From Candidatus Omnitrophota bacterium (GTDB taxonomy: Bacteria; Omnitrophota; Gorgyraeia; Zapsychrales; Zapsychraceae): 40,939 nt of DNA. The position numbers and the translations under genes were made by a program. The stretch's first letter is position 1. Each line of letters starts with the position of its first letter. The DNA lies in contig JAHJCZ010000063.1 of assembly GCA_018812705.1 (NCBI GenBank), positions 1 to 40,939 of the forward strand. The letters run 5' to 3'. Below are positions 8,136 to 24,772 of this stretch, piece by piece. The notes under the pieces are model-generated. The model was not told the DNA's origin, did not search any database, and saw nothing but the letters and a program-made list of their open reading frames with translations.

Positions 8136-9374
8136 GTGATGGCAGACAGCAAAAAGGTCAATAAAACATTGACCATAGGTCAGGCTCAAGAGTTAAAGAT
8201 CCTAAGGAAAATTGTAGATCTCACAAATACAGAATTAGATCTTAAAAAAATATTAAAAGAGACCGTAAAAGTTGTTTCTGAAATGACTAAGGCAGATTCT
8301 GTTTTTGTTTACCTTTTCGACGAAGCGAAAAAGAATCTGGTCCTGATGGCTTCTAAAACCTCTCATGCAAAAGAATTAGGCGAGGTTATTTTAAAAGTAG
8401 GTGAAGGTATTACGGGTTGGGTTGCTAAACAAAATAAACATGTTGTTATAAAGGAAGCTGCTTTTGAAGACCCCAGATTTAAAAGCTTTGATGTTCTTCC
8501 TGAAGATAAATATGAAGCATTTCTTTCGGTCCCTATAGTTTATAAGAACAAAGCAATTGGCGTAGTAAATGTCCAGCACAAAAAACCGCATGAATATGCT
8601 CAAAACACTACAGAATTGATCTCTGCGATAGCAAAGCAAATAGGTGGGGTTATTGAAAATGCTAGGCTTTATGAAGAGCAAAAGATCAAGGCTTTGCAGT
8701 TTGATAGCTTGGTGAAAGTAAGTAAGTCCATTACATCTCAGGATTATCTGGATGAGATCTTGAGCCTTATCGTTGTCGTTACTGCAGAGATGCTTAATTC
8801 TAAAATATGCTCGATAATGCTGTTAGATAAAAAAGCCAAGGAGCTGATCATTAAGGCGACGCAAAGCTTGAGTGAAGAGTATAAGAAAAAACCAAACATA
8901 AAAGTTAACGCAAGTATTAGTGGTGATGTTGTCACAAGCAAAAAACCAATAGCCATCTATGATGTTCGTAAAGAGAAGAAATATGCTTTTAGAGATATTG
9001 CAATAAAAGAAAAGCTGACATCAATGTTGGCTGTTCCAATGATCGTAAAAAATACAGCTATAGGCATTATCAATATTTATACAAAAATACCACATTCTTT
9101 TACTCAGGAAGAGATCGATGTTCTGCAGTTGGTTGCAAATCAGGCTGCAATAGCTATTGAAAATACTAAGCTGGTTGAAGAGGCTGTTAAAGCAAAAGAG
9201 GCTCTTGAGACAAGGAAGGTCATTGAGAGGGCTAAGGGCATACTGATGAAGATGGGTGGCTTAAACGAGCAAGAAGCTTATAAATTAATACATAAAAAGA
9301 GCATGGATTCATGTAAGCAAATGAAAGAGATAGCTGAATCCATTATTTTGATGGAAGAGTTGCAGCGACAATGA
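8136..9374 (+). CDS. GAF-GAF-ANTAR RNA-binding antiterminator (probable start 8136 GTG or 8139 ATG)
   Basis: Two GAF-type domains (SVPIVYKNKAIGVVNVQ; AVPMIVKNTAIGIINIYT) and C-terminal ANTAR signature ERAKGILMKMGGLNEQEAYKLIHKKSMDSCKQMKEIAESIILMEEL; no REC domain. Confidence 0.9.
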   Translation: MMADSKKVNKTLTIGQAQELKILRKIVDLTNTELDLKKILKETVKVVSEMTKADSVFVYLFDEAKKNLVLMASKTSHAKELGEVILKVGEGITGWVAKQNKHVVIKEAAFEDPRFKSFDVLPEDKYEAFLSVPIVYKNKAIGVVNVQHKKPHEYAQNTTELISAIAKQIGGVIENARLYEEQKIKALQFDSLVKVSKSITSQDYLDEILSLIVVVTAEMLNSKICSIMLLDKKAKELIIKATQSLSEEYKKKPNIKVNASISGDVVTSKKPIAIYDVRKEKKYAFRDIAIKEKLTSMLAVPMIVKNTAIGIINIYTKIPHSFTQEEIDVLQLVANQAAIAIENTKLVEEAVKAKEALETRKVIERAKGILMKMGGLNEQEAYKLIHKKSMDSCKQMKEIAESIILMEELQRQ

Positions 9375-10909
9375 AAACCTTTCTATTTGCAATAAAAGAT
9401 AATAAGTATCTTGTCCCATTAGTGCTTTTAGTTTTTAGTTTTTTTATTAGAATGAGCTTGATCAGTAAAGGGCCGTATAGTCTGGATTCTTTAGTAGTAG
9501 TAGATGCAGCGCTTAAAACAATACAAACCTACCAAATTCAATATTTTCACGATTTTCAATATCCGTTGGCTGTTATTTTCCTTGTAGGTTTTATTAACTT
9601 TTTTAAGTTATTCTCAGTTTATGATCCGGTATTTTTATATAATTTTTTAAGTGTGTTTTTTAGCTCAATGAGCGTTTCGTTGTTTTATGTTTTGATCAAG
9701 CAGTTAATAAATAAACCTGCAGCGTTTTTTACAGCTATTTTGTTTTCATTATGTCCAATTTATTTAGGGCTATCTGTTTATGGTACAAGCAATATATTAA
9801 GCTTGTTCTTTCTTTTTTTATGCCTTGTGAGCATGAATCAATATTTTTTGTCGCAAGAAAAAAAATATTATTTTTTAAGTTCTTTTAGCTTAGGGTTAAT
9901 GGGCGCAGCAAGGCTGCAAGAAATGTTTTTTATCTTGCCTGCTATTTTTTGTTTGTATGCTTTTTCTCCTTTGGAAAAGATTCGTCCGGACAGATCACAA
10001 AAAAAGTTGAGGACGAAGCTTTGTGGCTTTGCCGGATATCTTGTTATTGCTGTTTTAATAGGAGGGATATTTTATTTGCCAGCGATCTTAAGACAAATAA
10101 AATCTCCGGAAACGCCTTTTCTCATCGGGGTCTTGGTCACAAATGTTCCAAGAAGCGGTTTTATTAAGTTTTTTATAGGCTCAATTGTTCGGAATATAGG
10201 TTTTATAAAAATGTCCTTTTCTTTCTTGGGGCTTGTTCTGTCTGTTGTTGGGATAGCATTAATGGCATTTTCAAATAGAAGGGCTTTTGCTTTATGCTTT
10301 TCTTGGATACTCGCACCCCTGCTTATTTTGGCATGTTTCAGGATCACGGGACCTAGGCTTCTTGTCTTGATCGTTCCAGCTTTTTATGTAGGATTAGGGT
10401 ATGTTTTTTCGATCGTTTTGAAAAAGAACAAAACAATGCGCCTAGTTGTTTTTGTCGTATTTGTTGGGATTCTGTTCTCAAATTATTTTAAAATATACCC
10501 GATTTTATTACATAGGCATAATGCTGCTCTTTTGCCTGATTATGCACGGAAGATTGGCGAGATTTCTAAGCCAAACGATGTGATTATCTGTCATGATGAG
10601 GCTTTGTTTATACAGTATTATGCTAAAAGACAGACAAAATCGCGTCCCAGCGAGAGTGATCTTTTTAGCAGAGAAGCGATGATGAAATATAAAGATGAAG
10701 TTAGAGTACTGTTAGCTCAAGGCAGGTCTGTTTATTTAACTTGGCCAGGGATGTTTGCATCTGAGCACCCGCAAGTGTTTGAGCATTTAACAAAGAAATA
10801 TTTTAAAGTTGAGGAAGTGGGAATGATGCCGTATGAGGATTGGCATAGGGGGCCGAATAGACAGCAAATTTACAAATTTCCGATATATAGATTAAAGAAA
10901 AAAGAATAG
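9371..10909 (+). CDS. multi-pass membrane glycosyltransferase (GT39/ArnT-like)
   Basis: Overlaps preceding gene by ATGA; many TM helices; N-terminal GPYSLDSLVVVDAALKT and overall GT39/PMT_2-like layout. Confidence 0.65.
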   Translation: MKTFLFAIKDNKYLVPLVLLVFSFFIRMSLISKGPYSLDSLVVVDAALKTIQTYQIQYFHDFQYPLAVIFLVGFINFFKLFSVYDPVFLYNFLSVFFSSMSVSLFYVLIKQLINKPAAFFTAILFSLCPIYLGLSVYGTSNILSLFFLFLCLVSMNQYFLSQEKKYYFLSSFSLGLMGAARLQEMFFILPAIFCLYAFSPLEKIRPDRSQKKLRTKLCGFAGYLVIAVLIGGIFYLPAILRQIKSPETPFLIGVLVTNVPRSGFIKFFIGSIVRNIGFIKMSFSFLGLVLSVVGIALMAFSNRRAFALCFSWILAPLLILACFRITGPRLLVLIVPAFYVGLGYVFSIVLKKNKTMRLVVFVVFVGILFSNYFKIYPILLHRHNAALLPDYARKIGEISKPNDVIICHDEALFIQYYAKRQTKSRPSESDLFSREAMMKYKDEVRVLLAQGRSVYLTWPGMFASEHPQVFEHLTKKYFKVEEVGMMPYEDWHRGPNRQQIYKFPIYRLKKKE

Positions 10910-11039
10910 CTTTCTCGAGAAGAACAGAAGAAAGAATATCGCGAATATTGAAATATTAGTTGTAAAATGACAGTTTTGCTGTTTTAATTGTATAATTAAA
11001 TAATTATGATTAAGCATTTTAATAGGAATAGATCTTTAA

Positions 11040-13223
11040 ATGGATAGATTTAAAAAATCTTTATATATTTTTCTTGGTGCTGCATTTTTTCTTCTATTGA
11101 CAGCGAATGCTTTTGCTTCTTCTCAAGGAAGCGAAGGAGGGATAGTAGAAAGAACCAGCTTGTTGGCAATTCAGCTAAGTGTAATATTGTTTGCCGCTTG
11201 GGTCGGTAACCTTGCGTTCGCAAGGATGAAATTACCTGCAGTTCTTGGAGAGATTATTGCTGGTGTTGTCATTGGCCCTTACTTTTTAGGGGCGTATGGC
11301 TTTACTGGTTTTGAACATGGCCTTTTCCCTTTATCCGGTGATTTTCCTGTTTCAATTGAATTATATAGCCTTGCAACGATTGCATCGATCATTTTGTTGT
11401 TCTTTGTTGGCCTTGAAACTGATATTGAGACTTTCTTGAGGTTTTCTTTTGCGGGGTCTATCGTTGGTGTTTGTGGTGTTATTGTCAGTTTTATTGCAGG
11501 CGACGTTTTAGGGGTTATGTTAGCTAAAAGCCTGATGGGCCAAAATTATGGGTTTACTCATCCGTTCTGTCTTTTTCTCGGTGTTTTATCTACTGCTACA
11601 TCAGTTGGAATCACTGCCCGAATTCTATCCGAAAAAAGAAAAATGAATTCTCCAGAAGGTGTTACTATTTTGGCTGCAGCTGTTATCGATGATGTTTTGG
11701 GTATTATTATTCTTGCAATCATTCTTGGTATGGTAAAAAGCGGTCATATAGGATGGAAAGAAGTCTCCTTAATATCTCTAAAAGCTTTTGGTATTTGGCT
11801 AGGTTTTACTTTAGTAGGCCTTAAATACGCGCTAAAGTTATCTACAGCTCTTAACAAAATTAATGACCGCAACACTATTGCTATATTAAGTTTTGGTTTA
11901 GCCTTATTATTGGCTGGCATATTTGAGCATTTTGGTTTAGCTATGATCATTGGTGCATATGTTATGGGCCTATCATTATCTAAAACGGATCTTGCTTTTA
12001 TAATTCAAGAGAAGCTGGAGATGTTGCAGAAATTTTTGGTTCCGATTTTTTTCTGTGTAATGGGGATGCTGGTCAACTTGCACGAGATGGCTTCATGGCA
12101 AATACTGGGTTTTGGAATGCTTTATGTTGTGTTGGCAACACTTGGGAAGGTGATAGGTTGTAGCCTCCCCGCATTATTTCTGAATTTTAATTTTAGGGGT
12201 GCTTTGCGGATCGGAGTTGGAATGGTTCCAAGGGGTGAAGTCGCTTTGATCATTGCAGGTATCGGACTTTCAACAGGCATCATTGATGATAAAGTTTTTA
12301 GTATTGTCATGATAATGACTTTTGTTACAACTTTGATCACTCCTTTAGTTCTAGACAAGATGCTTGATTCGAAAAAGCCTGTTCTAAGAAAAGAGCAGGA
12401 AACAAAAGATGAACAAAAGACGATCAAATACGATATGCCTAGTGTTGAAACTGCTGAATTGCTTCTAAACAAAGTTGTGACTGCTTTTGAGAATGAGGGA
12501 TTTTTTGTTCATAGGATGGGTCGAGAAGGAAGACTTTATAAGATAAGAAAAGAGAGCGTCTTTATTGTAATGCGATACAGCCCGCAAAGGATGGAATTTG
12601 ATTGTAGCGAGATGGATATGTCTTTTGTTCACACTTTGTTCTATGAGGTCATAGCTGAACTTGAGCACGCGATGCAGACATTGCAGACATTAACAGACAA
12701 AAGTTCTATTGGCAAAAAGATATTTGATACACAAAAAATTATTGCAAGTCTCAATAATGAAAGAAAAAAGAAATTTCAGATCGTCTCTTCCAATGCGCTT
12801 AGTGTTGATCTAAAAAGCAGAACAAAAGAAGCAATTCTTTCTGAACTGGTAGATCTTTTAATAGAATCAAAACAATTAGACGTATCAAAGAAGGAAGAAG
12901 TCATCGACGATCTTCTAAAAAGAGAGACAATGATGTCAACAGGAATGCAAAATGGTATTGCCCTGCCTCATGCTAAAACAACAGCTGTAGACCATGTTGT
13001 TGCAGCTGTAGGTATTAGCAAGGAAGGCATTGACTATGCCTCTCTAGATAAAATACCATCTAGGATATTTGTTTTGACTTTGGCTTCAAAAGAACATCCA
13101 CATGCTTATTTGCAATCTATGTCTGAAATTAGCAGGTTTTTATCAAAAGAAGATAATAGGGTTAAGATGATCGAATGTATTACAAAAATACAATTATTTG
13201 ATGTTTTAAACATACACATGTAA
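11040..13223 (+). CDS. CPA2-type cation:proton antiporter with C-terminal PTS EIIA (PtsN-like) domain
   Basis: LPAVLGEIIAGVVIGPYFLG, multi-TM; C-terminus KREETMMSTGMQNGIALPHAKT-like EIIA with active-site-like His region. Confidence 0.8.
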   Translation: MDRFKKSLYIFLGAAFFLLLTANAFASSQGSEGGIVERTSLLAIQLSVILFAAWVGNLAFARMKLPAVLGEIIAGVVIGPYFLGAYGFTGFEHGLFPLSGDFPVSIELYSLATIASIILLFFVGLETDIETFLRFSFAGSIVGVCGVIVSFIAGDVLGVMLAKSLMGQNYGFTHPFCLFLGVLSTATSVGITARILSEKRKMNSPEGVTILAAAVIDDVLGIIILAIILGMVKSGHIGWKEVSLISLKAFGIWLGFTLVGLKYALKLSTALNKINDRNTIAILSFGLALLLAGIFEHFGLAMIIGAYVMGLSLSKTDLAFIIQEKLEMLQKFLVPIFFCVMGMLVNLHEMASWQILGFGMLYVVLATLGKVIGCSLPALFLNFNFRGALRIGVGMVPRGEVALIIAGIGLSTGIIDDKVFSIVMIMTFVTTLITPLVLDKMLDSKKPVLRKEQETKDEQKTIKYDMPSVETAELLLNKVVTAFENEGFFVHRMGREGRLYKIRKESVFIVMRYSPQRMEFDCSEMDMSFVHTLFYEVIAELEHAMQTLQTLTDKSSIGKKIFDTQKIIASLNNERKKKFQIVSSNALSVDLKSRTKEAILSELVDLLIESKQLDVSKKEEVIDDLLKRETMMSTGMQNGIALPHAKTTAVDHVVAAVGISKEGIDYASLDKIPSRIFVLTLASKEHPHAYLQSMSEISRFLSKEDNRVKMIECITKIQLFDVLNIHM

Positions 13224-13241: not shown

Positions 13242-13270
13242 TTGACAAAGGTATTTTTTTGTTGTATAGT
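13242..13270 (+). promoter_or_regulatory. sigma70-like promoter for amtB leader
   Basis: TTGACA (13242-13247), 17-nt spacer, TATAGT (13265-13270). Confidence 0.75.
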
Positions 13271-13283
13271 TTTTTTATCTTAA

Positions 13284-13324
13284 GGGCGCAGTCGTCCTCT
13301 TGAATCGAAGAAGATTCAGGGGGA
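13284..13324 (+). promoter_or_regulatory. attenuator unit 1 of amtB leader: hexaloop hairpin GGGC-GCAGUC-GUCC (13284-13297) overlapping a terminator (13295-13324 + T tract)
   Basis: UCCUCUUGAAUC-GAAGAA-GAUUCAGGGGGA followed by TTTTTT; the hairpin 3' arm UCC is also the terminator 5' arm. Confidence 0.75.
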
Positions 13325-13400
13325 TTTTTTATTGCCTTGTCATTGATCTCTTTGGTTAATAGTTTTCCAGGGTAAGAGAAGGCTAAAATTATTGGGAATA

Positions 13401-13432
13401 TTTATCTTAAATTAATGATGATTTGAGATAAA
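13401..13432 (+). promoter_or_regulatory. ANTAR P1-type hairpin, loop AAUGAU (amtB unit 2)
   Basis: UUUAUCUUAAAUU-AAUGAU-GAUUUGAGAUAAA; 13 bp incl. G-U pairs; loop A1 and G4. Confidence 0.75.
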
Positions 13433-13441
13433 CTAAATAGC

Positions 13442-13455
13442 GGACATTGATGTCC
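13442..13455 (+). promoter_or_regulatory. ANTAR P2-type hairpin, loop AUUGAU (amtB unit 2)
   Basis: GGAC-AUUGAU-GUCC; loop A1 and G4; 3' arm shared with terminator. Confidence 0.8.
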
Positions 13456-13491
13456 TCTTTTAAGCATTGTTGCTTGAAAGGGGATTTTTTT
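13453..13491 (+). terminator. intrinsic terminator/attenuator T2
   Basis: UCCUCUUUUAAGC-AUUGUU-GCUUGAAAGGGGA then TTTTTTT. Confidence 0.9.
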
Positions 13492-13493
13492 AT

Positions 13494-13507
13494 GGACAAA
13501 GTTGTCC
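13494..13507 (+). promoter_or_regulatory. ANTAR P2-type hairpin, loop AAAGUU (amtB unit 3)
   Basis: GGAC-AAAGUU-GUCC; loop A1 and G4; 3' arm shared with terminator. Confidence 0.8.
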
Positions 13508-13550
13508 TCTTTGGAACAGTTGTTGAACAATTGTTTTAAAGAGGACTTTT
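13504..13550 (+). terminator. intrinsic terminator/attenuator T3
   Basis: GUCCUCUUUGGAACAGUUGU-UGA-ACAAUUGUUUUAAAGAGGAC: long continuous hairpin incl. G-U pairs, then TTTT. Confidence 0.9.
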
Positions 13551-13598: not shown

Positions 13599-14942
13599 AT
13601 GTTTAAAGAAGTATTAACAAATAGGGTAGCATGCTTTTTTTTGTTGTTGCTTGCTGCAGGAATGACGCTGCTCTTGTCTTCTACGGCAAGTGCTGCAACG
13701 GCAGATGAAGCAATGTTCACAGCAAACAATACCTGGATGCTGGTTGCAACGATACTGGTTTTCATTATGCATCTTGGTTTTGCGACACTTGAAGCTGGAT
13801 TGACAAGATCAAAAAATACGGTCAATATTATCTTTAAGAATATTTCGATCGTTGCTATCGGGCTTTTAACATACGCGATAGTTGGCTTCAATTTAATGTA
13901 TCCAGGGGACGCTTGGATATTAGGGAAGTTCCTTGGTTTTTCAGGCTTTGGTATTGCTGCGCCTGAAGGAGCTGCCGGGTTAATAGATTATGCAGGCGGG
14001 GCATATACATACTGGACTGATTTTATTTTTCAGGCAATGTTCGCAGCGACGGCAGCTACAATTGTATCAGGTGCTGTTGCCGAAAGAATAAAATTGCATA
14101 GCTTTTTGCTGTTTTCAGTAATATTTGTGGGAATAGTTTACCCCTTTGTTGGAAGTTGGAAATGGGGAGGGGGCTGGTTAGATGCAATGAATTTTTATGA
14201 TTTTGCCGGGTCTACTTTAGTTCATTCTGTTGGTGGCTGGGGTGCTTTGGCAGGTGTTATTGTTTTAGGGCCAAGAATTGGTAAATATACAAATGGTGCA
14301 GTCAAAGCAATTCCTGGGCATAGTTTGCCGTTAGCGGCAATAGGTGTGTTTTTATTATGGTTTGGTTGGTTTGGTTTTAACGGAGGATCTGTTCTTTCTG
14401 CTGACCCCGGAGCTGTTTCTCTAGTATTTGTCACAACTACTTTAGCCGCAGCGGCAGGAATTATTACATCAATGGTCACTTCTGAAATAATTCAGAAAAA
14501 ACCTGACCTTTCTATGGTATTGAATGGTGCTTTGGCAGGTCTTGTAGGTATTACGGCAGGAGCTGATATGGTATCTGTTATGGATTCAATTATTATCGGA
14601 GGGGTTGCAGGTTTTTTGGTCGTTGTTGCCGTAATATTCTTTGACTCAAAAATAAAACTGGATGATCCTGTTGGAGCCTTATCAGTTCATTTGGTTTGTG
14701 GAATTTGGGGGACGCTGGCTGTGGGAATATTTAGTTCAAATCCAGACCATTCTTTTATAACTCAGCTGATAGGCGTCATAGCATATGCTTTAATATGTTT
14801 TCCAGCAGCTTTTTTGATATTTTCAGCAATAAAAGCAACTATGGGTATTAGGGTAACAGAAGAAGAAGAAAACAGAGGCCTTGATATTTGTGAACATGGC
14901 ATGGAGGCTTATGGTGGTTTTCAGGTTTTTAGTAATCAATAA
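13599..14942 (+). CDS. amtB: ammonium transporter
   Basis: Signal peptide; Amt core (LEAGLTRSKNTVNI, DFAGSTLVHSVGGWGALAG, WFGWFGFNGGS); C-terminal EENRGLDICEHGMEAYGGF. Confidence 0.97.
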   Translation: MFKEVLTNRVACFFLLLLAAGMTLLLSSTASAATADEAMFTANNTWMLVATILVFIMHLGFATLEAGLTRSKNTVNIIFKNISIVAIGLLTYAIVGFNLMYPGDAWILGKFLGFSGFGIAAPEGAAGLIDYAGGAYTYWTDFIFQAMFAATAATIVSGAVAERIKLHSFLLFSVIFVGIVYPFVGSWKWGGGWLDAMNFYDFAGSTLVHSVGGWGALAGVIVLGPRIGKYTNGAVKAIPGHSLPLAAIGVFLLWFGWFGFNGGSVLSADPGAVSLVFVTTTLAAAAGIITSMVTSEIIQKKPDLSMVLNGALAGLVGITAGADMVSVMDSIIIGGVAGFLVVVAVIFFDSKIKLDDPVGALSVHLVCGIWGTLAVGIFSSNPDHSFITQLIGVIAYALICFPAAFLIFSAIKATMGIRVTEEEENRGLDICEHGMEAYGGFQVFSNQ

Positions 14943-14973
14943 ATAGCAAACTATTAAAATGGAGGAATAAATA

Positions 14974-15315
14974 ATGAAAATGATCATAGCAATGATACAA
15001 CCTCATAAGCTGCCTGATGTAAAAAAAGCTTTGTTTGATGCAGAGATACATAAAATGACGGTTACTAATGTTTTAGGCTGCGGTCAGCAAAGGGGTTTCA
15101 GTGAGACTTATAGAGGGGTAGTGCATGAAGTTAATCTGTTAAAAAAAGTTCGCCTTGAAATCGCTGTAAATGAGAAGTTTGTTGACGATACAATAAAGGC
15201 AATTATTCAAGGTGCTAAGACGGGCAATATCGGAGATGGAAAGATCTTTGTTCTGGATCTGCAGAGATGTATAAGAATAAGGACAGAAGATGAAGGGCAC
15301 GAAGCAATAGGCTAG
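14974..15315 (+). CDS. glnK: PII nitrogen regulatory protein
   Basis: 112-113 aa PII fold sequence; YRGVV T-loop; [12 protein letters not shown]-loop; directly after amtB. Confidence 0.95.
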
Positions 15316-15328
15316 TATTTTTTAAGGC

Positions 15329-15356
15329 TTGACAAATTTGAGCTTGATGTTATATT
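15329..15356 (+). promoter_or_regulatory. sigma70-like promoter for glnN leader
   Basis: TTGACA (15329-15334), 16-nt spacer, TATATT (15351-15356). Confidence 0.65.
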
Positions 15357-15370
15357 TGTTGCAAAATTAA

Positions 15371-15423
15371 GGGCAATGAAGTCCTCCATATAAACATCAA
15401 TAATGTTTTTGTGGAGGATTTTT
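15371..15423 (+). promoter_or_regulatory. attenuator unit 1 of glnN leader: hairpin GGGC-AAUGAA-GUCC (15371-15384) overlapping terminator (15382-15423)
   Basis: UCCUCCAU...AUGGAGGA-type hairpin (UCCUCCAUAUAAACAU/AUGUUUUUGUGGAGGA) followed by TTTTT; loop A1 and G4. Confidence 0.85.
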
Positions 15424-15424
15424 A

Positions 15425-15446
15425 TTGAAGACAACGATGTCTTCAA
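15425..15446 (+). promoter_or_regulatory. ANTAR P1-type hairpin, loop AACGAU (glnN unit 2)
   Basis: UUGAAGAC-AACGAU-GUCUUCAA, perfect 8-bp stem; no terminator of its own. Confidence 0.85.
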
Positions 15447-15472
15447 AACTTTCTGATCAAAGTAGAATAGTC

Positions 15473-15486
15473 GGACAACGAAGTCC
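15473..15486 (+). promoter_or_regulatory. ANTAR P2-type hairpin, loop AACGAA (glnN unit 2)
   Basis: GGAC-AACGAA-GUCC; 3' arm shared with terminator. Confidence 0.85.
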
Positions 15487-15530
15487 TCTAAGCGGAAAAA
15501 TTGTATTTTCCTTCGCTTGAGGGCTTTTTT
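15483..15530 (+). terminator. intrinsic terminator/attenuator upstream of glnN
   Basis: GUCCUC(U)AAGCGGAAAA...UUUUCCuuCGCUUGAGGGC then TTTTTT. Confidence 0.85.
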
Positions 15531-15653: not shown

Positions 15654-17735
15654 ATGGATGAATTTAAAGCAATACCGGACTATTACGGCGAAAACGTTTT
15701 TAGTTTAAAAACTATGAGGAATTATTTATCTGACCAAGCATATAAGTCTTTAAGCGCAACTATTAGAGTAGGCGGAACATTGGAGCCAAAGATCGCAGAT
15801 GAAGTAGCAGATGCGATGAAGAATTGGGCACTTTCAAAAGGAGCAACTCACTTTACTCATTGGTTTCAGCCTTTGACAGGCTCAACAGCAGAAAAACATG
15901 ATGCTTTTATTACTCCTGATAATGAAGGTGGAGTGATCATAAAATTTTCAGGGAAGGAGCTTATTCAAGGTGAGCCTGACGCATCAAGTTTTCCTTCAGG
16001 TGGTTTAAGGCCGACTTTTGAGGCTCGTGGATATACTGGATGGGATCCAACATCGCCAGCTTTTATTAAAGAAGGACCGGAATCAGCTACTCTTTGTATT
16101 CCAACATATTTTATTGGATGGAAAGGTGAAGCCTTAGACAAGAAAACGCCTCTTTTACGTTCAATGAAAGCTCTTTCAAAACAAGTTTGTCGATTAGGCG
16201 AGATCTTTGGGATCAAATCAAAAGGAAAAACGGCATATGCAACTTTGGGTGGAGAGCAAGAATACTTTTTGATCGATAGAGAGTTTTATTATTCAAGAAT
16301 TGATCTTATGCAGACAGGAAGAACACTGTTCGGCAAAGAACCTGCAAAGCATCAGCAAATGGCAGATCATTATTTTGGAGCAATTAAAAGCCGTGTTATG
16401 GGTTTTATGGAAGATCTCGACAAAGAAATGTGGAGATTAGGTGTTCCTGCTAAGACAAGGCATAATGAGGTTTCGCCTGCTCAGTTTGAACTTGCGCCTG
16501 TTTTTGAACAGCTTAATTTAGCTGTTGACCACAATATGCTCCTTATGGAGGTTATGCAAAAAATTGCAGAAAGACATGATCTTGTATGTCTTCTTCATGA
16601 GAAACCTTTTGCAGGAGTTAATGGTTCGGGAAAACATAATAATTGGTCAATAGTAGGTCCTGACGATAAAAATTGGCTTTCACCAGGAGACAATCCGCAT
16701 GATAATGCTAAGTTCTTAGTGGTTCTTTGTTCGATCATTAAGGCAGTTGATACATATGCAGATCTATTGAGGGCTTCAATTGCATCAGCTGGCAATGATC
16801 ATAGGCTTGGTTCTCATGAAGCCCCACCAGCTATTGTTTCAATTTTCTTAGGCGAGCAGCTTACAGATATTATTGAACAAATTGAAAAAGGTGGAGCAAA
16901 GACTTCAAAAAAAGGCGGGGTCCTTCAGATAGGGGTTGATTCTCTTCCCGACTTACCTCGCGATGCAACTGATCGTAACAGAACATCACCATTTGCTTTT
17001 ACTGGCGCTAAATTTGAGTTTAGAGCAGTTGGCTCAAATGCTAATTTAGCAGGACCAAACATTGTTCTAAACACTATTGTTGCAGAAGCTTTAGATGAAA
17101 TTTGTGACAAGCTTGAAGGTGTTAGTAAAAAAGAACTAAATTCTGCAATTCAAAAACAATTGCAAAGTATCGTTACAAAACACAAGAGAATTCTCTTTAA
17201 TGGAGATAATTATACAGAAGAGTGGGTAAAAGAGGCAAAGAAAAGAGGTTTGCCAAATCTTAAGACGACCCCAGAAGCTTTAGAGGCGTTTAAGAACCCT
17301 GCTAATGAAAAAGTTTTAGCAAAATATGGCGTATTGTCTAAAACAGAGCTAGCTTCTAGGTATGAAGTATATAAGGAAATGTATGAATCAGTTATTGACT
17401 ATGAAGCAAAGCTATCTCTTGATATGGCAAAAACTATGATCGTTCCGGCTGTTTTTAGCTACCAAGAAGAATTGGCAGACAGTATTAAATCAGTTGAGGA
17501 GATCAATAAAACAAAATCAACTGGGTCAAGAAAACTCTTGAAAGAGATCACTGGTGAACTTGAAGGAGCATTAGTTAAGATTGACACGCTTGGTGCTGCA
17601 ATTAAGAAAGGCAAGGCCTTAAAAACTAAGGAAGCGATGACTGATCTTAGGGCGTCAATTGATGCTCTGGAAGGATTAGTTGCTGAGGATGTTTGGCCAT
17701 TAGCTTCTTATGCAGAAATGTTGTTTATGCTTTAA
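15654..17735 (+). CDS. glnN: type III glutamine synthetase
   Basis: ~693 aa; GGLRPTFEARGYTGWDPTSPAFI, NEVSPAQFELAPVFE, EKPFAGVNGSGKHNNWS. Confidence 0.95.
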   Translation: MDEFKAIPDYYGENVFSLKTMRNYLSDQAYKSLSATIRVGGTLEPKIADEVADAMKNWALSKGATHFTHWFQPLTGSTAEKHDAFITPDNEGGVIIKFSGKELIQGEPDASSFPSGGLRPTFEARGYTGWDPTSPAFIKEGPESATLCIPTYFIGWKGEALDKKTPLLRSMKALSKQVCRLGEIFGIKSKGKTAYATLGGEQEYFLIDREFYYSRIDLMQTGRTLFGKEPAKHQQMADHYFGAIKSRVMGFMEDLDKEMWRLGVPAKTRHNEVSPAQFELAPVFEQLNLAVDHNMLLMEVMQKIAERHDLVCLLHEKPFAGVNGSGKHNNWSIVGPDDKNWLSPGDNPHDNAKFLVVLCSIIKAVDTYADLLRASIASAGNDHRLGSHEAPPAIVSIFLGEQLTDIIEQIEKGGAKTSKKGGVLQIGVDSLPDLPRDATDRNRTSPFAFTGAKFEFRAVGSNANLAGPNIVLNTIVAEALDEICDKLEGVSKKELNSAIQKQLQSIVTKHKRILFNGDNYTEEWVKEAKKRGLPNLKTTPEALEAFKNPANEKVLAKYGVLSKTELASRYEVYKEMYESVIDYEAKLSLDMAKTMIVPAVFSYQEELADSIKSVEEINKTKSTGSRKLLKEITGELEGALVKIDTLGAAIKKGKALKTKEAMTDLRASIDALEGLVAEDVWPLASYAEMLFML

Positions 17736-19591: not shown

Positions 19592-19599
19592 GATTTTAT

Positions 19600-19619
19600 T
19601 CAAAGCAATGGCGTTTTGA
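19600..19619 (+). promoter_or_regulatory. ANTAR P1-type hairpin, loop AAUGGC (orf169-gdhA leader)
   Basis: UCAAAGC-AAUGGC-GUUUUGA; loop A1 and G4. Confidence 0.7.
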
Positions 19620-19623
19620 GTAG

Positions 19624-19659
19624 ATCTCGAGGTTGAGATTCTTGTAGGAGCTATGTCCT
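19624..19659 (+). promoter_or_regulatory. candidate degenerate P2 region: AUCUC-GAGGUU-GAGAU (19624-19639) and AGGA-GCUAUG-UCCU (19646-19659)
   Basis: Two small hexaloop hairpins; first has G4 but not A1, second lacks both but overlaps the terminator 5' arm. Confidence 0.4.
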
Positions 19660-23386: not shown

Positions 23387-23408
23387 CTGCTATTTTTTTA
23401 TTCACACC

Positions 23409-24626
23409 GAAAATTGTAATTATAAGTGCGACAAGAAATAAATAAGAAAGCTTCATAGATCAAAAAGAACTGTTATTTTGTAAGTGGAAAAACAAACAAA
23501 AACAGGAGACCTATGAAGCCAAAGGATTGTAACACTAAGAAGAAGAAATATGTACATTTAAGTGAAAGAGATCGGTATAAGATTGAAGGGTTGTTGGAGG
23601 GCAAGAAGAATATTGAAGAGATTGCGAAGATATTACGTCGAGATCGATCAACGATATATCGGGAGATTAAGCGAGGGACAGTTAGGCGTAGACAATATGA
23701 TTATAGTGAGAAATATCAATACCGGGCTAATACAGGGCAGGCAGATTATGATAAGCAAGGGCAGAATAAAGAGCGCGGGTTGAAGATAGGCAAAGATAAA
23801 GGTCTGGAAGCGTATATTCGGATTAAACTGATCAAAGAGCGTTTTTCACCGGATGCAATCATTGGGCAAATCAAAGCTGAAGGGTTAAGGTTTGAGGGGA
23901 TCATAACAACGAAGACTCTATATAATTACATTGATGCGGGATTTTTTTCTGGGATAAGCAATGAGAATTTGTGGCAGAAAAGGAATAAGAAAAAGCGTGG
24001 ATACAAGACGGTGTCGCGGGTAAACACGAAGAATAGGGATTGTCGGAGCATCGAAGATCGGCCCAAGAAAGTAGATAATCGAGTTGAGTATGGTCATTGG
24101 GAGGGCGACACGGTTAAAGGGCCAATGGGAACGAAAACAGGCTTATTTACGTTGACGGAAAGAAAGACCCGGGAAGAAATCATCATTAAGATCTGCGATG
24201 GCACACAGGCGGCTATAAGAGAGTCGATCGACGGTCTAGAGATTAGATACGGAGCTAGATATAAGGCTAAGTTCAAATCGATCACGTTTGATAATGGTGT
24301 TGAATTCTTAGGGTGGAAAACTTTAGAAATAAGCATATTAAATCCTGAAGAACGCAGGACCATGATATACTTTGCTTATTCGTATAGTTCATGGGAGCGC
24401 GGGACAAATGAGAACCAGAACCGAATGATCAGGCGTTTTATTCCTAAGGGTGTAAATATAGCAGAATTCAGTGACGAAGATATCCAGGAAATAGAGGATT
24501 GGATGAATAATTACCCCAGAAAAATACTGGGTTATAAGACGGCCAATCAAATGGCTAAAAAATACTTACAAAGCGACAGTTTCGGGAAAAGATCTAAGCG
24601 TGTCGCACTATGAGTTACAATTCACG
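23409..24626 (+). mobile_element. IS30-family insertion sequence
   Basis: ~25-bp imperfect terminal inverted repeats (gaaaattgtaattataagtgcgaca / revcomp gtgaattgtaactcatagtgcgaca) around transposase; flanked by 16-bp direct repeat TTTTTTTATTCACACC (23393-23408, 24627-24642). Confidence 0.85.
23513..24613 (+). CDS. IS30-family transposase
   Basis: HTH (IEEIAKILRRDRSTIYREIKRG), DDE-type elements EGDTVKG, ITFDNGVEF, GTNENQNRMIRRFIPKG. Confidence 0.93.
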   Translation: MKPKDCNTKKKKYVHLSERDRYKIEGLLEGKKNIEEIAKILRRDRSTIYREIKRGTVRRRQYDYSEKYQYRANTGQADYDKQGQNKERGLKIGKDKGLEAYIRIKLIKERFSPDAIIGQIKAEGLRFEGIITTKTLYNYIDAGFFSGISNENLWQKRNKKKRGYKTVSRVNTKNRDCRSIEDRPKKVDNRVEYGHWEGDTVKGPMGTKTGLFTLTERKTREEIIIKICDGTQAAIRESIDGLEIRYGARYKAKFKSITFDNGVEFLGWKTLEISILNPEERRTMIYFAYSYSSWERGTNENQNRMIRRFIPKGVNIAEFSDEDIQEIEDWMNNYPRKILGYKTANQMAKKYLQSDSFGKRSKRVAL

Positions 24627-24772
24627 TTTTTTTATTCACACCTGTTTTTTATTTGCTTTTTTGCAATAAATGAGTAAAATAATAGCCTTCAAAAGGCGAG
24701 CAGGTTGTTTTAGTCTATAATATTAATATAATGCTTTATATATTTAATGTGCTATTGAAAGAACATAAGAAT

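Follow-up and report, generated by a model that had tools for sequence, protein, structure and literature searches.

Predicted ANTAR-type attenuators in nitrogen gene leaders of Omnitrophota include promoter-proximal gates that lack a P1 hairpin

Introduction

The closest described relatives of the leaders analyzed here are the antitermination systems EutV-eutP of Enterococcus faecalis, NasR-nasF, and AmiR-amiE, with which they share hexaloops carrying G at position 4 (G4), a hairpin that shares its 3' arm with the 5' base of an intrinsic terminator, an ANTAR protein, and an association with nitrogen genes. In current models, ANTAR antitermination depends on a pair of hexaloops, on hairpins P1 and P2, that are separated by a few nucleotides. 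According to PMC3369931, antitermination in E. faecalis is lost when P1 is deleted and falls sharply when the linker measures 3 or 14 nt, and linkers in eut leaders are 5-12 nt long. The same paper describes 13 ANTAR sites in six transcription units of Desulfotomaculum acetoxidans, and multi-gate ANTAR control of ammonium transport, P-II, and glutamine/glutamate synthase genes is already known. The Desulfotomaculum regulon resembles the present one in placing several ANTAR attenuators before genes for ammonium transport, P-II, and glutamine/glutamate synthesis. Its sites came from a dual-hairpin model, and neither promoter-proximal gates without P1 nor hexaloops on terminator tips are described in the text consulted.

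Work on EutV by Walshe et al. (2022, PMC8934654) indicates that the protein binds one hexaloop at a time, and single sites were predicted on that occasion. With one dimer on one loop, the need for a second hexaloop was an open question to these authors, who urged work on single-hexaloop sites. Our search of the literature, which covered main texts mostly from outside subscription journals, found no paper on single-hexaloop terminator gates and none on ANTAR systems of Omnitrophota.

Results

Two gates of different build in the glnN leader

The window analyzed here is a stretch of 40,939 nt from Candidatus Omnitrophota bacterium, comprising the entire contig JAHJCZ010000063.1, in which the nitrogen genes follow the order GAF-GAF-ANTAR gene, amtB, glnK, and type III glnN. 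An initial annotation had placed a single-hairpin gate and then a two-hairpin gate at 15329-15530, and the coordinates, hairpins, and terminators of both were confirmed in the sequence:

15329..15356, + strand: strong glnN promoter TTGACA-16-TATATT (boxes 15329-15334 and 15351-15356), 11 of 12 consensus matches, kept in the sister species
15370..15385, + strand: predicted gate 1 antiterminator hairpin AGGGC-AAUGAA-GUCCU, without an upstream P1; from sequence scan, fold, identity in the sister species, and an order-wide pattern
15381..15423, + strand: gate 1 terminator T1 (15381-15419 plus U-tract), fold -19.4 kcal/mol
15425..15446, + strand: predicted gate 2 P1 recruitment hairpin UUGAAGAC-AACGAU-GUCUUCAA, 8 bp, from sequence scan; GAAAAC-AAAGAU-GUUUUC in the sister species
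15473..15486, + strand: predicted gate 2 P2 antiterminator hairpin GGAC-AACGAA-GUCC, 4 bp; loop AAAGAA in the sister species
15483..15530, + strand: gate 2 terminator T2 (15483-15524 plus U6), fold -18.3 kcal/mol
15654..17735, + strand: glnN, type III glutamine synthetase, the putative regulated gene (Pfam GSIII_N, E=6e-76)

The core of the gate 1 hairpin, GGGC-AAUGAA-GUCC (15371-15384), lies 14 nt past the -10 box; including A15370-U15385 makes the stem 5 bp long. The GUCC of its 3' arm doubles as the 5' base of T1, and in gate 2 the GUCC at 15483-15486 is likewise common to P2 and T2, giving the overlap of P2 with an intrinsic terminator. With the -10 box ending at 15356, the presumed start site leaves only about 8 nt of RNA before gate 1, and hence no P1 is possible upstream of it. 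Gate 1 thus has the makeup of a minimal single-hexaloop ANTAR target, a stem of 3 bp or more topped by a hexaloop that has A1 and G4, and lacks the second, upstream hexaloop of a dual-hexaloop target. Gate 2 has both hexaloop hairpins, with A1 and G4 in each (AACGAU and AACGAA; AAAGAU and AAAGAA in the sister species). The tip of T1 is CAAUA, with no hexaloop, and T2 ends in the A1/G4-like loop AUUGUA (15500-15505).

Folded in isolation, T1 and T2 are much stronger than the hairpins that overlap them (-5.0 kcal/mol for gate 1, -4.0 kcal/mol for P2), so termination would be the default and the hairpin would form only with assistance, the arrangement of an attenuator. Removal of the first GUCCU weakens the fold of T1 to -9.1 kcal/mol, and its contact with the U-tract is gone.

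The description of gate 2 as canonical and the cleanest site of the window is not supported, as its 26-nt linker (15447-15472) falls outside both the eut range of 5-12 nt and the 2-25 nt of an actinobacterial set (PMC8164766); amtB gate 2, with 9 nt, is the closer match. Linkers in the clade span 8-56 nt, so a different spacing rule applies here.

Three gates before amtB

The leader of amtB and glnK contains the following features:

13242..13270, + strand: amtB promoter TTGACA-17-TATAGT, 11 of 12 matches
13284..13325, + strand: predicted gate 1, P1-less hairpin GGGC-GCAGUC-GUCC (13284-13297) and terminator (13294-13325); loop ACAGUG in the sister species
13401..13485, + strand: predicted gate 2, P1 13401-13432 (AAUGAU), P2 13442-13455 (AUUGAU), and terminator 13452-13485
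13494..13546, + strand: predicted gate 3, hairpin GGAC-AAAGUU-GUCC (13494-13507) and terminator (13504-13546)
13599..15315, + strand: amtB (13599-14942) and glnK/P-II (14974-15315), behind the leader (Pfam Ammonium_transp and P-II)

The GGGC of gate 1 begins 13 nt after its -10 box, and its loop has G rather than A at position 1, as is common in the clade (29 of 132 gates). The terminators of gates 1 and 2 carry tip hexaloops, GAAGAA at 13307-13312 and AUUGUU at 13466-13471, and the latter is the closest free hexaloop upstream of gate 3. Reading 13442 as a further single-hairpin gate was ruled out by the 13-bp P1 at 13401-13432. In having both P1 and P2, glnN gate 2 and amtB gate 2 resemble the known dual-hexaloop antiterminators; the other three gates (glnN gate 1, amtB gate 1, and amtB gate 3) each lack a dedicated P1.

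The ttaaGGGC start shared by the first hairpins of the two leaders had been attributed to a common design or to duplication. The former explanation is supported, because the promoter-proximal hairpin recurs across the order; duplication is not, as beyond the promoter and the GGGC/GUCC core the leaders differ and each aligns with its own orthologue. When both strands of the 40.9 kb were scanned for A..G.. hexaloops overlapping a terminator, short G+C-rich hairpins were found solely in the amtB and glnN leaders, and four of the five forward matches to GGNCANNGNNGTCC in the whole genome are sites in these leaders. A hairpin at 19595-19624 was rejected as a gate, its stem being rich in G-U pairs.

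No gates were found before gltB, considered as a further target, in the window or the relatives examined. An IS30-like transposase gene (23513-24613, HTH_38), within an element at 23390-24645 flanked by copies of TTTTTTTATTCACACC, lies directly upstream of gltB (24731), and this element may have replaced the gltB leader. Adjoining the ANTAR/amtB region, positions 11040-13223 encode a single 727-aa protein with a Na+/H+ exchanger domain and a PTS EIIA-type domain.

The ANTAR protein and the sister species

About 6 kb upstream of the glnN leader the window encodes the likely antiterminator:

8136..9374, + strand: GAF-GAF-ANTAR protein gene, 412 aa, a likely trans-acting antiterminator (Pfam GAF twice and ANTAR, E=1.4e-20)

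This gene gives the single PF03861 match, and hence the only ANTAR domain, of the 2.69-Mb genome. The domain is alignable with those of EutV, NasR, and Rv1626, and it is identical to EutV at R142, K149, E160, Y164, and M172, residues that in EutV contact G4 or plug the loop (roles from PMC8934654). K143 is also retained, R stands in place of K147, and the backbone contacts R168, N173, R175, and R177 differ. EutV makes no specific contact to A1 (PMC8934654), which agrees with the tolerance of either purine at loop position 1 seen here. With these residues conserved, the sequence evidence upholds the initial annotation in predicting an ANTAR-type leader with one gate that lacks P1 and one that has both P1 and P2.

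Omnitrophica WOR_2 bacterium RIFOXYA2_FULL_38_17 (L037), whose ANTAR protein is 92% identical, is the closest named relative and the sister species referred to above. Its glnN leader (9937-10150) has the parts in the same order with both gates kept. The gate 1 hairpin is identical although its flanks have changed, and the gate 2 P1 stem shows one compensated pair, from G-C to A-U. Loops of the glnN leader have changed at free positions only, with G4 kept in every one. Those of the amtB leader all differ (GCAGUC/ACAGUG, AUUGAU/GCAGAU, and AAAGUU/AAGGUU, window/sister), but none has lost G4 or the purine at position 1. The amtB terminator tips read GAAGAA/GACGGA and AUUGUU/AUAGUU, and the sister glnN T1 has a tip loop of 7 nt. 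In the sister species an extra amt-glnK pair (10174-11878) lies between the same two-gate leader and glnN; it is absent in the window, where this leader sits directly before glnN.

A class of promoter-proximal gates across the order

The order-wide search covered 86 genomes with a pattern consisting of a promoter, 8-34 nt, and GGRC-RNNGNN-GYCC, with the reversed pattern as control. It returned 41 matches in 33 genomes and none in the control. With the loop left free (GGRC-N6-GYCC), 43 promoter-proximal hairpins were found, again with none in the control; 42 of them have G4 and 41 conform to RNNGNN, as against about one in eight expected for R1 combined with G4. First gates without P1 occur in at least 15 genera, beside ordinary gates with P1 and P2. 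In a phylum-wide search the strict pattern was present in 30 of 392 Omnitrophota genomes, 29 of which have an ANTAR gene. Gates are almost confined to the order with ANTAR frames of about 400-460 aa, as opposed to about 240 aa in most other families; in most Omnitrophota families this shorter ANTAR frame occurs without the gate pattern. Contigs filed under a Nanoarchaeota and a Planctomycetales MAG (L050, L051) carry a GAF-GAF-ANTAR gene of 68-71% identity, and for this reason their bins or names are probably wrong.

It could be argued that such hairpins are controlled by a different regulator or by translation, as in a leader-peptide attenuator, and that their likeness to ANTAR sites is accidental. 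An Rfam scan of the leaders gave nothing above gathering scores, with weak sub-threshold matches attributable to chance, which leaves room for a regulator of another kind. The 41 RNNGNN loops among 43 unconstrained ones and the ANTAR gene in 29 of 30 gate-bearing genomes speak against this explanation, and the roughly 8 nt of RNA before gate 1 is too short for a leader peptide; we consider it very improbable.

From the pattern and from glnN, amtB, and ANTAR searches we assembled 132 non-redundant gates, in each of which the 3' arm of the hairpin starts a folded terminator. When sorted by how far they lie from the -10 box, first gates form two sets: 33 at 9-21 nt, a distance too short to accommodate P1, and another 32 at 41-100 nt, in most of which a recognizable P1 lies between the -10 box and the gate. 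Both kinds coexist in the order, several times before the same gene (glnN). Genes downstream of gates include glnN, amt-glnK, carA-like, and nadE-like genes; proximal gates precede the carA-like genes, assigned by eye from their translations to the small subunit of carbamoyl phosphate synthetase, and the nadE-like ones in L173, L176, and L061 (3560-3740), suggesting that the regulon extends to other glutamine-using enzymes. In L187 and L189, of one genus, a promoter-close GGAC-RNNGNN-GCCC hairpin precedes a ribB-like gene (by eye) and the terminator tip is not an ANTAR loop; this hairpin possibly reflects a different regulator or chance.

A more serious alternative for glnN is that gate 1 is a constitutive attenuator, in which T1 sets a basal level, the hairpin is a relic P1, and gate 2 alone is under ANTAR control. 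In canonical relatives (e.g., L178 and L182) a P1 without a terminator does occupy this promoter-proximal position, and gate 1 could thus be a P1 of that kind lying beside a terminator; T1 of glnN lacks a second hexaloop; and E. faecalis needs P1 (PMC3369931). Against this, the 3' arm of the gate 1 hairpin is exactly the 5' base of the terminator, as in a P2, and it is invariant in the sister species while its flanks changed. Several leaders (L160, L167, L177, and L179) have one such gate and no other, and there the gate must be the regulated step if anything is. The constitutive attenuator therefore appears unlikely, though it deserves some weight.

Hexaloops on terminator tips

RNNGNN loops, such as AAAAC-AAUGGC-GUUUU (L186) and AAC-AGUGAU-GUU (L161), are found on the terminator tips of 20 of 33 promoter-proximal first gates, 16 of 47 tandem gates, and 3 of 32 distant first gates (a set in which most have P1), as against 8 of 76 control terminators of the same loci. 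By Fisher tests that treat related leaders as independent once near-identical ones were removed, and so overstate significance because the leaders are related by descent, proximal gates differ from distant ones (p=1.9e-5) and from controls (p=1.4e-7), and distant gates do not differ from controls (p=1). Counting hexaloop tips only, RNNGNN accounts for 20 of 23 in proximal gates and 8 of 39 in controls; positions 3 and 5, outside the RNNGNN definition, lean to U and A, like antiterminator loops. The pattern is seen in a dozen genera or more. The controls and the distant first gates led us to reject the view that such tips are common to terminators in general.

Among proximal gates, tips are present in 14 of 18 followed by another gate and 6 of 15 that are last (p=0.038, with the same overstatement); counting 7-nt RNNG loops, they occur in 17 of the 18. 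A terminator of this kind may therefore double as the P1 that recruits for the gate behind it. Tips are also commoner in last gates than in controls (6 of 15, p=0.010; tandem last gates 14 of 37, p=0.0017; both likewise overstated), so service as the next gate's P1 is insufficient as the sole explanation; use solely within the own gate is equally insufficient, since tips are commoner when a gate follows. Taken together, the two observations suggest mixed use: the tip would recruit for the gate that follows and also provide its own gate with a second loop. Eight of the 15 promoter-proximal last gates have no RNNG tip at all. In the window, T1 and T2 of amtB carry a tip hexaloop and T1 of glnN does not, making glnN gate 1 the exception among multi-gate leaders, with a next gate that owns a P1.

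Tip hexaloops and the gate 1 hairpin might also serve mainly as decoys, terminated short RNAs titrating the ANTAR protein as proposed for EutX. Terminated RNAs would indeed bear one or two RNNGNN loops, and Walshe et al. noted an extra single hexaloop in EutX (PMC8934654). A decoy leaves unexplained both the overlap of hairpin and terminator base and the dependence of tips on the absence of P1 and on a following gate, and we regard this as a remote prospect.

Discussion

Gate 1 of glnN is, on the sequence evidence, a real and new variant of predicted ANTAR antitermination. We consider it likely that the GAF-GAF-ANTAR protein operates the glnN leader as an attenuator with two gates, gate 1 belonging to a clade-wide class of P1-less gates. 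By default most transcripts would be cut short, at about 60 nt by T1 or at about 165 nt by T2. The ANTAR protein encoded about 6 kb upstream would serve both gates; its activation, presumably via the GAF domains when nitrogen is short, would let it grip the hexaloops by G4. Nitrogen status as the signal is a guess, drawn from which genes are controlled. With the short GGRC:GYCC hairpin held by the protein, the terminator would be deprived of its bottom 4 bp, and the residual hairpin, now away from the U-tract, would let the polymerase pass. Gate 2 would work as in known systems, with P1 recruiting and P2 antiterminating, and two gates in series would give lower basal leak and a sharper response.

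Gate 1 and its class would act without an upstream P1. A gate of this kind might not open by ANTAR at all, given that E. faecalis needs P1 and a narrow linker (PMC3369931), and glnN gate 1, with neither P1 nor tip hexaloop in the window, is itself a point against this reading. The likeliest ways for P1 to be dispensable near the promoter would be a second loop on the terminator tip or ready-made GAF-GAF dimers. In many such gates a tip hexaloop would serve the own gate or act as P1 of the next; glnN gate 1, which lost or never had one, would depend on a single hexaloop. We put forward only tentatively, at somewhat less than even chances, that the tip is the second loop of proximal gates, that a defeated terminator recruits for the next gate in a relay, and that some gates function with a single hexaloop.

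Compared with described dual-hexaloop antiterminators, what appears to be new here is the P1-less promoter-proximal gate, the RNNGNN tips of many terminators, linkers longer than those of eut, and loops that begin with G as well as A. Unlike the REC-ANTAR sensors of those systems, the protein here is GAF-GAF-ANTAR. As in the single-hexaloop sites predicted by Walshe et al. (PMC8934654), glnN gate 1 offers one loop; those authors anticipated such sites in settings free of the time limit that a transcribing polymerase imposes, whereas the single-hexaloop sites of this clade overlap terminators.

The order seems to run P1-less gates beside P1-bearing ones under the same ANTAR protein, often with a second loop on the terminator. 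This coexistence provides natural variants with which the role of each loop could be tested. It also widens the range of ANTAR targets, since searches with dual-hairpin models may miss sites without P1. The recurrence of the P1-less gate across the order makes a known puzzle of ANTAR antitermination testable.
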